From: a virus
Length of the DNA: 22,375 bases
IMG/VR virus record: IMGVR_UViG_3300045135_000141
Coordinates: 1-22,375 of that record
Reading direction: 5' to 3' (one strand)
Position numbers and translations under genes: made by a program
Notes under the pieces: generated by a model
The model's database searches: none
What the model was told of the DNA's origin: nothing
The model's input: the letters and a program-made list of their open reading frames with translations, nothing else
Part shown: piece by piece, positions 12,138 through 17,909 of the stretch
How positions within the stretch are numbered: position 1 is the first letter of the stretch
Layout of the letters: each line of letters begins with the position of its first letter

Positions 12138-15100
12138 ATGGCGAGATCTATTACACTTAGAGAGCTTCGAGGTGAAGTTGAGGAAGATCAACAAGAAGAC
12201 AATAAGCAGATAGTACCCAACATGGGTGCTACCTTCTCTCAGACAGAAGAGGTTCTTGATACAACTAAAGATAAGCCTAGGTCTATCTCCCTTAAAGAGT
12301 TACGGGGTGAGGTTGAAGAAGATGAGGAAACCCCTCTCTTTGAAGATGCCACTACTCTACGCAAGAAAGACCTTAAAGTAGGTAGTAACGCTGATGATAT
12401 TCGTAACTACATGGTTGATCGCTTTGGTGTTGACTACAATACAGCAGGCGGTAAGAGCAATGATGAGGTTGTAGAAGACTTTGTAGATCACATGCGTTAC
12501 GTCAACGGTAACGTAGTATCTGTAGCAGGTGAAGCTCGTTACATGACTAATGCAGACGAAGCTAAGCGTGCTAGGGCTGATAAAGCTTTTACTTTGTATG
12601 ATCGTATGGGTAACGTGTTTATCAACGATGGCTTTACAGGTGCTGTGGATGGTATCCTTGACTACATGGGTGCGACTTTAACAGATCCATCTACCTACAT
12701 AGGTGTATTGACTGGTGGTATAGGTAAGGCTTCAGGTGTTGGCCTTACTCAGGGTGCTAGAGCGGCAGTTAAAGAAATGGCACTTGCTGCTGGGCGTCGT
12801 GCTGCAGCTTCTGCTCCTACTAAAGAAGCAGCTAAGACTGCAGGTGAGGCTGCGGCTAAACGTGCTGCTGAACGCTTTGCTGCTGCTAGTGTTAGCTCAG
12901 CAGAGTCTAAGGCTGTTCGTGCTGCGGCTGCTCGTATGGAACGTGAAATCTTTATGCGTGAGGCTAAGAAGAAAGCTCAGCGTGACGCACTTAATGCTGC
13001 AGCCTCTGCAGACGCTAAGAAGATTCTACTTGCTACAACAGCTTTGGACTCTACGTTTGCTGTGATGCACGATGTAACACTACAGAATACTATGTTGACT
13101 GCTGGCTCTCAGGAGCAATACAGTTTGTTACAGACAGGGTTTAGCTCCTTGTTAGGCGGTGTGGGCGGTTTAGCACAGCTAGGCTTTGGTAAGTTTAAGG
13201 GTTCTTCTGGTCTTAGTGAAACAGACATCAAACTAAAGTTTGGTGCCCAGCGCAATGAAGCAATGCGTAAAGTAAACGAAGCCGTAGAAAACATTAAGAA
13301 GAAAAGAGAACGTGTTCCTGTTGAGACATCAGACGATATAGCTAAAGAGGCAGCTAAGATTATCCGTGATGAAGCCGATCTCTGGAAAGCTAAGGTAGCA
13401 CGTGGTAAGGATCAGTTTGATGATGTCCCTACTTCTGTAGACTTCCTTAAAAGTGTGATGGTAGGAGAAGACAACAAAGGCGGCCTTGTTAAACTGTACA
13501 AAGACAATGGTGTACCCCTGCCAAAAGGAACTATTGTATCTGATGTTATGACTTCTCTTGTGCAGAAACTACCACAAGAACAGCTAGACGTTATCAATAA
13601 ACAACTAAAGCCTATGGGTATTAACTTAGGTGAGACAACGCAGGTAGCTACAAGTCTAGGTGATCTTCTTGCTGTAGAGATTAGTAAGAGTGGCCAGGTC
13701 TTGAACGTCATGTCTCAAGTACGTAAGTCTATTGATGCTGCTGTACTTTATGGAGACTCTGTTGTTAACAAACAGGTTGAGGTTATTGATGCCGTAGAAG
13801 AGGAAGCTGCTAAACTTACAAAGTCTAAGCTTGGTGAGTACGGTCAGAATATCTGGCGTCGTTTGCTTGTTTCATCTCCTGCTACTACTGCCGTTAACGT
13901 CATGGGCTTTGGTCAGTTCTATGTAGGTCAGTCTCTAGCTGATATCTTCTCTGGTACAGCAAGCACTCTGTACGGCATTGCTCGTGGTGGTAATGCTACC
14001 AAAGAAGGACGTGAGGCTCTTCGTGTAGGACGTGTTTATCGTCAGATCCAAGCACAGAAGATGCGTAACCTCCTAGATCCATATACTACACATGATGCTT
14101 ATATGTCTTTCTTGCAAGAGAACAAAGACGTAAGTAAGATCTTGTTTGAAAGCTTTAGTGGTGGTATTCAACGTAGTGGTAAACGCTTTGGTATTGACCC
14201 TGATGCTAAGTGGTTCCAGACAACAGAGATGGTTGTTGATGGCGCTAACCGTTTGACTGGTGTTAAGATCCAGGATACCTTCACTAAGTCCCAGATGTTC
14301 ATGACAGAGATGGACAAGTGGCTACGTCTTAACAAAGATCGTACACTAGAGGATGTCTTGAAGAAGGGTGACTTTGATGTAATTGACAATGATGTCATTG
14401 GCTCGGCTCTAGATACAACACTAAAGTCTGTATTCTCTAAGGACTACACAACAGACGATCAACTCCTAGCTAACGCAGCGAGGCAGGTTGAGAAGTTCTC
14501 TAACATCCCTGTAGTCGGTACAATCCTACCCTTTGGTCGCTTCTTCAACAACACTATTGCTACGGCATACCAGTGGTCTGTTGGTGGTGGTGTGCAGATG
14601 GCAGGTGCTATGTATAACCGTGCTATCAAGGGTGCTCCTATTCCTAAGACTGCTAACGAAGCATTTGCTCGTAGCTTGGTAGGTATTACAGCTTATCGTC
14701 TTGCTATGGAGTACGATGAAGGGCGTCGTGAGCAAGGTCTAGGAACCTTTGAAGTAGATGCAGGTGGTGGTAACATTCTGGATGCTAAGAACATGTTTCC
14801 TTTCTCTCTCTGGTTGGCTGTAGGACGTGCAGGTAACTTGAGCCGTAATGGTGAGATGGTACCTAGAGAGCTTATTGAGGATGTTGCTGCGCAGCTTGCT
14901 ATCGGTCAGTTTGCTAGTGACATTGAGTTTGGTAATGACTTGTACAATGTCTTTGATACACTGTTAAACAGTGATGAAGGTGCTCGTCAGATGACATTTG
15001 ATGCATTCTACAAGCAGGGCGGTAACATTCTTGCAGGCTTCACTCGTCCTCTAGATGCTGTTAACCGTATGGTAGGTCTAATCAATAACTCAGATGCTGC

Positions 15101-15746
15101 ACGAGATCAACGTCAACAGACTGGTATTGGTGTAGGCGTTATGGGTGCAACTAAATACGTAGACAATCTAATTGAAATCTTCACAGATAAACTTGATAAT
15201 GTTACAGGTGAAGAGCTACGAGTTGCTACTCGTGAGGGTTCACTACGAGACGTTAACCCTATCCTACGTATTATGGGTATTAAGACTATGCCAGCACGTA
15301 CAGCTACAGAGAAAGCCTATAGCATGGCAGAGATGCACTCTTGGCAGGCTAATGAACGTAGCCAGATCCCTGCATATGATAAGATCTTTAATACCCTAAT
15401 TGCACCTGAGTTTGAGAAGCGCTTTCTAGCTTTGGTAGACTCTAAAGAGTTTAGGGAAGCTCCTGTAGCTCGACGTCGTAACCAGCTAACAAAGTGGAAG
15501 AACCAAATTACAGGTGAGATGCGTGCCTACCTTTCTGAATCTAAGGAAGGAGGCTTATACGCTGCACAGCGCAAGGCCACTACGGTTGGTAATAAGAACG
15601 TAAGACACGAAGCATTGAAGCATATGCGTGAGCATTACGGGTACTCTGGTTCTGGTCCACGAGAGATGAACTGGGAAGAGGTTCAACTATTCATAGAACT
15701 AGCTGAGTACTACGAAGCCCTTAATGCACCAGGTAAAGCAATGTAA
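12138..15746 (+). CDS. Giant internal virion / ejection-type protein (1202 aa, gp16-like by position)
   Basis: The last gene of the plus-strand block, closed by the hairpin seven bases after its stop. The N-terminus carries the same 15-residue motif twice: R-S-I-[TS]-L-[RK]-E-L-R-G-E-V-E-E-D at residues 3-17 and 48-62. Glycine-rich, weakly hydrophobic segments appear at about 160-200, 330-355 and 577-605, and a strongly Ala/Lys/Arg-rich helical block at about 205-305. The rest is helical. No lytic transglycosylase or lysozyme motif was found, unlike T7 gp16, whose N-terminus is a transglycosylase. In this phage a separate GH19 gene could supply that activity. The size, position and small hydrophobic patches fit a protein ejected into the host envelope with the DNA. 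That role is inferred. Confidence 0.6.
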   Translation: MARSITLRELRGEVEEDQQEDNKQIVPNMGATFSQTEEVLDTTKDKPRSISLKELRGEVEEDEETPLFEDATTLRKKDLKVGSNADDIRNYMVDRFGVDYNTAGGKSNDEVVEDFVDHMRYVNGNVVSVAGEARYMTNADEAKRARADKAFTLYDRMGNVFINDGFTGAVDGILDYMGATLTDPSTYIGVLTGGIGKASGVGLTQGARAAVKEMALAAGRRAAASAPTKEAAKTAGEAAAKRAAERFAAASVSSAESKAVRAAAARMEREIFMREAKKKAQRDALNAAASADAKKILLATTALDSTFAVMHDVTLQNTMLTAGSQEQYSLLQTGFSSLLGGVGGLAQLGFGKFKGSSGLSETDIKLKFGAQRNEAMRKVNEAVENIKKKRERVPVETSDDIAKEAAKIIRDEADLWKAKVARGKDQFDDVPTSVDFLKSVMVGEDNKGGLVKLYKDNGVPLPKGTIVSDVMTSLVQKLPQEQLDVINKQLKPMGINLGETTQVATSLGDLLAVEISKSGQVLNVMSQVRKSIDAAVLYGDSVVNKQVEVIDAVEEEAAKLTKSKLGEYGQNIWRRLLVSSPATTAVNVMGFGQFYVGQSLADIFSGTASTLYGIARGGNATKEGREALRVGRVYRQIQAQKMRNLLDPYTTHDAYMSFLQENKDVSKILFESFSGGIQRSGKRFGIDPDAKWFQTTEMVVDGANRLTGVKIQDTFTKSQMFMTEMDKWLRLNKDRTLEDVLKKGDFDVIDNDVIGSALDTTLKSVFSKDYTTDDQLLANAARQVEKFSNIPVVGTILPFGRFFNNTIATAYQWSVGGGVQMAGAMYNRAIKGAPIPKTANEAFARSLVGITAYRLAMEYDEGRREQGLGTFEVDAGGGNILDAKNMFPFSLWLAVGRAGNLSRNGEMVPRELIEDVAAQLAIGQFASDIEFGNDLYNVFDTLLNSDEGARQMTFDAFYKQGGNILAGFTRPLDAVNRMVGLINNSDAARDQRQQTGIGVGVMGATKYVDNLIEIFTDKLDNVTGEELRVATREGSLRDVNPILRIMGIKTMPARTATEKAYSMAEMHSWQANERSQIPAYDKIFNTLIAPEFEKRFLALVDSKEFREAPVARRRNQLTKWKNQITGEMRAYLSESKEGGLYAAQRKATTVGNKNVRHEALKHMREHYGYSGSGPREMNWEEVQLFIELAEYYEALNAPGKAM

Positions 15747-15779: not shown

Positions 15780-15983
15780 TTATTTAGCACCGTACCTGCT
15801 TAAACAATGCTTGGCCCAGAGAGATGCTTCTGTCAAAGAATCCAAGGCCTTGTCTCGTTCTGCAGTATCGTGTAGATGACTCAACAGGAAAGCCTCTACT
15901 TGTGCTACACGATCTGCTAGCATGACATTAAAGGTCTGTTCCTTTTTCTGTATATGCATAGCAGCTTCATGTTCTATATCCAT
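15780..15983 (-). CDS. Small helical protein resembling the Acb2/Tad1 hairpin family (candidate anti-CBASS/anti-Thoeris)
   Basis: 67 residues, the last gene of the minus-strand block. AGGG lies eight bases before the ATG. Two helices are predicted by eye: about 10-36 and 41-64. The second carries R43-D-K-A-L47-x-x-L50-x-E52-A53-x-x-W56-A57-x(3)-L61-x-R63. This matches the RE.SLA.T.LEEA..WAN.A.AR pattern that I recall at the C-terminus of many phage proteins with the Acb2/Tad1 hairpin domain. Known members form oligomers that bind cyclic nucleotides or ADP-ribose-type signals made by CBASS or Thoeris and so silence these defences. The usual small, non-essential-looking neighbourhood at an operon end also fits. 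Only the motif is seen. Ligand binding is inferred, and the N-terminal helix is shorter than in several known members. Confidence 0.6.
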   Translation of the reverse strand: MDIEHEAAMHIQKKEQTFNVMLADRVAQVEAFLLSHLHDTAERDKALDSLTEASLWAKHCLSRYGAK

Positions 15984-16004: not shown

Positions 16005-16184
16005 TTATTCTTTTGGTAAGTCTGACAGTGCTTTGATTGTACTAAACACTGCATCAAGGTTAGGACAGATGATCTTCATAGAAGCCCAATCGTCGTTTGC
16101 GTTACGTCCATTAGCACGTACAACAAAACCATTATCAGCAAACTCTACTGAACACTCATCTACTTCTTTAGTTAGCTTCATCAT
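16005..16184 (-). CDS. Small conserved-looking protein of unknown function (59 aa)
   Basis: A short gene between PhoH and the Acb2/Tad1-like gene. Its first ATG (16184-16182) overlaps the PhoH stop in an ATGA. GAAGGAAGGG lies just upstream as a strong ribosome site. A second ATG follows at once. The protein starts MMKLTKEVDECSVEF and looks like a small beta-beta-alpha fold: strands around VEFADNGFVVRANG (13-26), then an N-A-N-D-D-W-A-S-M-K segment (28-37) and an amphipathic helix to the end (LDAVFSTIKALSDLPKE). There are two cysteines (11 and 40). It is not recognised as a named family. The overlap, ribosome site and balanced composition make it a convincing gene. Confidence 0.7.
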   Translation of the reverse strand: MMKLTKEVDECSVEFADNGFVVRANGRNANDDWASMKIICPNLDAVFSTIKALSDLPKE

Positions 16185-16894
16185 AACCCTTCCTTCATAA
16201 AGACTTTAACCCACTCAGCACAGATGTCACTACGTACAATATCATCAATACCAAACTCCACCACAGGTACTGGCAGCATGTGTTTCTTAGCCAAGTGAAT
16301 AACTTTAGATAAGCCATCTGCTTCTTTAAGATCTGACTGCTGCACATCACCATTGAGCACAATCATACTACCTTCACCGACCCTTGTCAAGAGCATCTTT
16401 AACTCGTGTGTTGTAATGTTCTGTGTTTCATCTACAATGATGAAGGCATTATCAAAGCTACGCCCTCGCATAAGTGCAAGTGGTGCCATCTCAATGTTGC
16501 CATTCTTGATGCCTGTCTCTACTGTACCCTTACCTAAATGCTTAGTCAGTACATCCAACACAGGCAAAGCCCAAGGGTAAGTCTTCTCTTCCAGTGTACC
16601 TGGTAGAAAGCCTAGCTCCTTACCTACCGCTACGTGAGGCCGAGTGATGACGATCTTGTCTATCTCCTTTAGTGTGTATAGATCCGCAGCATACGTAGCT
16701 GTAACATATGTTTTACCTGTACCTGCAGGACCAAGGATAAACACTTGGTTAAACTCCTTTAGTGCACTAAGTAACTGTGCTTGCCTCTGAGTCTTGGGAA
16801 CAAGGCCAGAGGTTTTCTTGTTTTCAGCATTCTTGTAGTTTGTCTTACGTCGTGTACGTGTTTGTTTCTTAGGAGGTTCAAGACTGTCGTTCAT
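16181..16894 (-). CDS. phoH: PhoH-like P-loop ATPase
   Basis: 237 residues. A basic N-terminal tail (about 8-27) precedes a PhoH domain covering nearly the whole remainder. Walker A is GPAGTGKT at 55-62. The PhoH-typical ITRPHVAVGKELGFLPG follows at 83-99, Walker B FIIVDE at 151-156, and LNGDVQQSD at 190-198. PhoH proteins are cytoplasmic ATPases of uncertain role, with some evidence for nucleic-acid helicase activity. They are very common in marine phages, where a link to phosphate starvation is often suggested but not proved. The start overlaps the 3' end of the endonuclease VII-like gene by 17 bases, and its stop is shared with the next small gene. All key motifs are intact. Confidence 0.93.
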   Translation of the reverse strand: MNDSLEPPKKQTRTRRKTNYKNAENKKTSGLVPKTQRQAQLLSALKEFNQVFILGPAGTGKTYVTATYAADLYTLKEIDKIVITRPHVAVGKELGFLPGTLEEKTYPWALPVLDVLTKHLGKGTVETGIKNGNIEMAPLALMRGRSFDNAFIIVDETQNITTHELKMLLTRVGEGSMIVLNGDVQQSDLKEADGLSKVIHLAKKHMLPVPVVEFGIDDIVRSDICAEWVKVFMKEGL

Positions 16895-17554: not shown

Positions 17555-17739
17555 TATGCGCTTTCTCCCCAAGCAATACAACGCCAGTCTTTTACAAACA
17601 TTCCGTTACCTTCTACTGTAGCAATGCCATACTTTAGAGATTCCATACATTCATCACGTGATGTAAAGAGGTACTGGTTAACCATGAGGCTACAGTCTGT
17701 TAGCTCTACCCCGCAGTACAAGATTATGGCTGTGAACAT
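17554..17739 (-). CDS. Four-cysteine small protein of unknown function (61 aa)
   Basis: A small protein with a hydrophobic start (MFTAIILYCGVE) and cysteines at 9, 16, 31 and 54. The pattern C-x6-C-x14-C-x22-C ends in W-R-C-I-A-W. A similar layout (two early cysteines, F.S...C in the middle, RC..W at the end) occurs in short uncharacterised proteins of alphaproteobacteria and phages, as far as I recall. It would fit a disulphide-linked protein acting outside the cytoplasm, but there is no clear cleavable signal peptide. It overlaps the DUF1289 gene by 16 bases upstream and the glutaredoxin start by one base downstream. No function is assigned. Confidence 0.65.
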   Translation of the reverse strand: MFTAIILYCGVELTDCSLMVNQYLFTSRDECMESLKYGIATVEGNGMFVKDWRCIAWGESA

Positions 17740-17909
17740 TGTTTGATCCTTTCAAGTATCATTAGTTGTTGTTCGTCAGACATAATAGACCAATCCCTTA
17801 TCTCGTCGATATGCCTGTTACACCCTGTGCAGAAGTCATCATTATCTAAACGACAAACTCTTACACAGGGTGAAGGTGTAGACCCTAGGTTAGGTCTACG
17901 ATTTCGCAT
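17724..17909 (-). CDS. DUF1289 family small zinc-type protein
   Basis: 61 residues. The core runs S-P-C15-V-R-V-C19-R-L-D followed by C27-T-G-C30 and R-H-I-D-E-I-x-D-W40 with S-x-M-S-D-E-Q. This is the full DUF1289 signature found across proteobacteria. The four cysteines probably bind a metal. The molecular role of the family is not established. The ATG lies inside the last codons of the ribonucleotide reductase gene (25-base overlap) and its ribosome site is weak, so translation is likely coupled. A host origin is plausible because the family is mainly bacterial, but this is an inference. Confidence 0.85.
   Translation of the reverse strand: MRNRRPNLGSTPSPCVRVCRLDNDDFCTGCNRHIDEIRDWSIMSDEQQLMILERIKQCSQP

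Follow-up and report, generated by a model that had tools for sequence, protein, structure and literature searches.

We identified, at the end of the early operon of a marine virus of the roseophage type, a 67-aa protein that very probably belongs to the Acb2/Tad1 hairpin superfamily, an assignment supported through its relatives. It is a distant, fast-evolving, minimal relative consisting of the hairpin only, and is neither a strict Acb2 nor a strict Tad1. Phages use Acb2/Tad1 proteins to soak up bacterial alarm molecules, and both Acb2 and Tad1 bind cyclic trinucleotides at trimer interfaces.

Gene and operon context

The window, i.e., the whole stretch of DNA analyzed, is a 22,375-base IMG/VR virus record. 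Its minus-strand early operon ends, in order, with genes for MazG, class II RNR, DUF1289, a 61-aa ORF, glutaredoxin, endonuclease VII, PhoH, a 59-aa protein and the 67-aa hairpin protein. An earlier note, made from the sequence alone, had proposed an operon-terminal ORF at 15780-15983, and this was borne out: the ORF is the last early gene, with a terminator-like hairpin behind it. The product, read from an ATG at 15983 to a stop at 15780, is MDIEHEAAMHIQKKEQTFNVMLADRVAQVEAFLLSHLHDTAERDKALDSLTEASLWAKHCLSRYGAK. The features of this region are as follows.

15780..15983 (stop codon included), minus strand: gene for the 67-aa Acb2/Tad1-hairpin-like protein (ORF; same-slot homologs; family match to PF24729/phrog_1454)
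15770-15753, minus strand: terminator-like hairpin at the early-operon end, directly behind the 67-aa gene (consensus scan)
12138..15746, plus strand: gene for a 1202-aa protein, the convergent neighbor (ORF; homologs in CRP-603 and CRP-207)
16005..16184, minus strand: gene for a 59-aa protein between PhoH and the hairpin gene (ORF; same-place homolog in locus L064, 38.6% identity)
16181..16894, minus strand: PhoH-like ATPase, the upstream neighbor, kept in nearly all relatives (PF02562, 2e-64; synteny)

The 1202-aa neighbor, probably a large protein of the virion, belongs to the structural operon on the plus strand, which converges on the hairpin gene. The 59-aa protein matched no database family and, among the loci examined, had a homolog only in L064. 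A 61-aa DUF1289 protein (17724-17909, minus strand; PF06945, 1e-18) represents a cysteine-rich family common in bacteria and lies here within a phage nucleotide-metabolism operon. The MazG of this operon was set aside as an anti-defense candidate on account of MazG being common in these phages.

Homologs in roseophages

Using tblastn, we detected homologs in the Roseobacter phages CRP-603 (E = 5e-5), CRP-207 and CRP-2, in each of which the gene is the last early gene, follows phoH and is convergent with the large virion gene. Public phage records label the homologs "hypothetical protein". Two alignment-based scans of IMG/VR yielded 31 distinct contigs with homologs in that slot; a scan of IMG/VR with the 67-aa protein alone gave no match, and when genome contigs were scanned with the family, no copy turned up in bacteria. 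A weak match in Acinetobacter phages, Minot among them (E = 6), was a chance hit within an unrelated protein.

Synteny was examined at 20 loci. PhoH was present in 19 and RNR in all except two, both at contig edges; most loci also had the convergent virion gene. Identity to the window ortholog was 28-39% for the 67-aa protein, compared with 63-86% for PhoH, 75-88% for RNR and mostly 44-65% for the virion protein. The hairpin gene is fixed in position and diverges far faster than its neighbors. No hairpin gene was found at the corresponding place in CRP-4 and CRP-5. In CRP-1 and CRP-345 (L091 and L092), a MazG pyrophosphohydrolase gene, and not the hairpin gene, closes the early genes ahead of the convergent virion gene, which suggests that the operon end is an exchange slot.

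Assignment to the Acb2/Tad1 hairpin superfamily

The earlier note had recognized the motif R-D-K-A-L..L.EA..WA....L.R, which is present as described except that three residues, not four, separate WA from L. Its assignment to the Acb2/Tad1 hairpin domain holds by way of the relatives and not for the window protein alone. The latter had no Pfam match, NCBIfam, PADLOC and PDB searches returned nothing useful, and phrog_1454 was matched marginally (E = 0.016), because of which the assignment is not provable from the window sequence. A phmmer match of the single protein in PDB was to a designed repeat protein and was discarded.

When the relatives were compared with PF24729 (Acb2/Tad1 hairpin), L057 scored 2.5e-4, CRP-207 0.0058 and others 0.016-0.05, all below the curated cut-off of 27 bits; the divergent homolog L050 registered no PF24729 match. 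Matches of the relatives to phrog_1454 reached E = 6.3e-7. This family, which has no assigned function, also matches T4 Vs.4, a known Acb2, at 7e-4, and, in SUFG_00048 of Sulfitobacter phage phiCB2047-B, covers exactly the 44 residues with which that protein passes PF24729 (5.4e-8; 33.4 bits). The nearest sequences among clear PF24729 members were the SUFG_00048 hairpin, phiCB2047-B being likewise a roseophage, and the stand-alone hairpins of L089 and L090. The 67-aa family aligns without gaps over 42-45 residues, across both helices, with the phiCB2047-B and L089 hairpins. Unlike the window protein, the SUFG_00048, L089 and L090 hairpins carry F-N-P-S ahead of helix 1 and R-R-R in the loop.

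SUFG_00048 itself (L039:2075-2641), annotated as hypothetical, contains an RyR domain (PF02026, 3e-10) fused to the PF24729 hairpin (5e-8); the hairpin of L089 and L090 is a separate small ORF. SUFG_00048 is possibly a two-domain nucleotide sponge.

Several controls addressed the resemblance. In a set of 6,464 ORFs, drawn from all loci together with reference sequences, a search with the family profile raised its own members and then only Acb2-type references above the inclusion threshold. In the reverse search of the same set with an Acb2 reference profile, only references and the 67-aa family did so. Profile-profile comparison of the family with the Acb2/Tad1 reference gave a score of 39.7 (probability 92); 200 column-shuffled versions averaged 10.7 (sd 2.4) and scored at most 21.3, and by this measure the resemblance exceeds chance. 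Against all 177,635 PDB sequences, the family-only profile ranked Tad1 first (8kbb, E = 0.53) and T4 Vs.4 second (7uq2, E = 0.66); each match is insignificant individually, and two sponge families in the top two ranks would not be expected by chance. A match of the A3 profile to Vs.4 (2e-15) was circular, Vs.4 itself being in A3, and was not used.

Predicted fold

The AlphaFold2 model, built from 14 sequences, is a two-helix hairpin with a mean pLDDT of 93.8.

15876..15977, minus strand: helix 1, residues 3-36 (AlphaFold2 model)
15792..15866, minus strand: helix 2, residues 40-64, carrying the conserved motif E-[RK]...L.E...W (AlphaFold2 model; conservation)

In a search of viral predicted structures the top match (probability 1.00) was an unnamed protein of 68 aa that is probably closely related; the second was an "Acb2/Tad1 hairpin domain-containing protein" of 64 aa (probability 0.99, TM 0.69). 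Fifteen of the best 50 matches were named Acb2/Tad1 hairpin, and phiCB2047-B appeared at rank 18. E-values in this search were modest, as one would expect given the simplicity of the helical hairpin. The PDB fold search with the window model gave no significant match and listed Tad1 four times; the same search with a genuine PF24729 hairpin (a single-sequence model of lower confidence, pLDDT 80) also gave no significant match, and no Acb2/Tad1 protein was among its best 50. The hairpin fold agrees with what the earlier note had expected, and no unrelated family scored higher. Its description of the protein as unusually short did not hold, as the phage proteins annotated as Acb2/Tad1 hairpins include examples of 61, 64, 65 and 72 aa, and PDB 9ptq, a solved structure, has 76 aa.

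Comparison with known Acb2 and Tad1 proteins

Like the 67-aa protein, the Acb2 proteins T4 Vs.4 (PDB 7uq2) and Pseudomonas phage p26/gp24 (8h2j, 8ixz) are small accessory phage proteins that form a two-helix hairpin with A..[KR]L.EA..W in helix 2. Acb2 is longer (88-94 aa), and its G-Y segment (Tyr8) and Phe82 are absent from the window protein. T4 Acb2 requires Tyr8 to bind dinucleotides, and its Phe82 stacks against the base (PMC12657218). Every member of the 67-aa family lacks the N-terminal G-Y segment, and the window protein begins inside helix 1; in an anchored alignment its Ser62 occupies the position of Phe82, which is not conserved. Lacking both the tyrosine segment and the stacking phenylalanine, the window protein cannot have a canonical dinucleotide pocket.

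The C-terminal hairpin of Tad1 (8kbb, 7uav, 8smd) has a loop-helix, R-E...TKL.E..MW, that corresponds to that of the 67-aa family. In Tad1 the hairpin is preceded by an N-terminal beta-sheet domain (PMC12043709), whereas the window protein is all-helical and has no such domain. PDB 9ptq, "Acb2 homolog 43", is a short, stand-alone hairpin like the window protein; it aligned without gaps over 40 residues with the combined profile A3, a match that is non-circular but draws on the reference sequences that A3 contains. Its loop reads G-R-E-K, and it keeps Arg41 and Thr48, both of which are lost in the window protein.

At the positions that align with residues 41 and 48, most other hairpins carry Arg and many carry Thr, respectively; judging from conservation, these are putative ligand contacts. 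In the 67-aa family, Arg41 occurs only in L057 and near-identical copies and Thr48 only in L050 and L051. Glu42 is invariant, Lys/Arg43 nearly so, and the Trp56 pattern is kept. With Tyr8 and Phe82 lacking equivalents and Arg41 and Thr48 mostly lost, the putative ligand site is therefore remodeled or lost.

Host context

Phages with relatives of the 67-aa protein infect Rhodobacteraceae. Across 198 genomes of one Rhodobacterales family, SMODS nucleotidyltransferases were found in 15, SAVED effectors in 12 and a ThsA-type STALD in 1. CBASS genes thus occur in a minority of the sampled genomes, and the SMODS and SAVED genes indicate that cyclic-oligonucleotide signaling is present in likely hosts. 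PF24729 itself was detected in 9 of the 198 genomes, several of these proteins being short; judging from these matches, PF24729 hairpin proteins already circulate in the likely host family. In L180 (Rhodobacterales), a PF24729 hairpin of about 53 aa, containing S-R-E-L-D-Q-A-K-V-R-L-E-E-A-L-M-W-A, is among the shortest members seen and is probably prophage-borne.

Function and alternative explanations

We lean toward the 67-aa protein being a divergent nucleotide sponge with a remodeled site, as its homology, position and fast divergence suggest; taking membership in the hairpin superfamily as given, a sponge role appears fairly probable. During infection, several protomers would assemble into an oligomer like those of Acb2 and Tad1, probably hexameric. 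Sites between its protomers would capture a nucleotide immune signal and, without degrading it, keep it away from effectors belonging to CBASS or a comparable system. A cyclic trinucleotide or another signal would be a more likely ligand than the canonical dinucleotide. The terminal accessory slot, the fast divergence and the CBASS genes of the host family speak for such a role. Counted against it were the missing equivalents of Tyr8 and Phe82, the loss in most members of Arg41 and Thr48, the lack of a direct significant match for the window protein, the position of all relatives below the Pfam cut-off, the failure of any PDB fold match to reach significance and the small share of sampled host-family genomes with CBASS.

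The same missing ligand residues would fit a hairpin that was kept as an oligomerization module, lost nucleotide binding and now acts, for example, as an adaptor or regulator binding a phage or host protein. Whereas many anti-defense genes are patchy in occurrence, this gene is kept by almost all members of a single phage clade and always sits in one slot, and hairpins are also found fused to other domains, such as RyR. However, fast divergence suits an arms race better than housekeeping, the conserved Glu42-Lys/Arg43 and Trp56 pattern remains, and the short solved homolog 9ptq was deposited as an Acb2 homolog; we regard loss of binding as possible but rather unlikely. Convergence, in which an unrelated small helical phage protein acquired a similar amphipathic second helix, draws on the simplicity of helical hairpins, the weak single-protein E-values and the span of the strongest similarity (about 30-45 residues). 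Yet reciprocal profiles, shuffle control, PDB ranking and viral fold search all point to the same family, and the ungapped alignment to the phiCB2047-B and L089 hairpins runs through both helices, making convergence very improbable. The ORF is short and adjoins a terminator, as a spurious frame might, but its frame, length and position are kept across about 35 loci. Substitutions among close homologs fall mostly at third codon positions (e.g., 15/22 for CRP-603 vs CRP-2), and the ORF is therefore a real coding gene; conservation refutes the opposite view, to which we attach a negligible probability.

A bolder form of the sponge reading is that these proteins make up a roseophage clade of their own, in which sponges reduced to the hairpin have discarded the entire canonical dinucleotide pocket and bind a different immune signal at a remodeled interface of Glu42-Lys/Arg43, Trp56 and the C-terminal [HY]-G-x-K. 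We consider this version doubtful and offer it tentatively.

The assignment would extend the Acb2/Tad1 superfamily to a marine roseophage group missed by current models, every member tested being below the Pfam cut-off. It suggests that nucleotide-signal defense and counter-defense matter in marine Rhodobacteraceae, and the missing dinucleotide pocket makes it possible to test directly how much of a sponge can be dispensed with while a signal is still bound.
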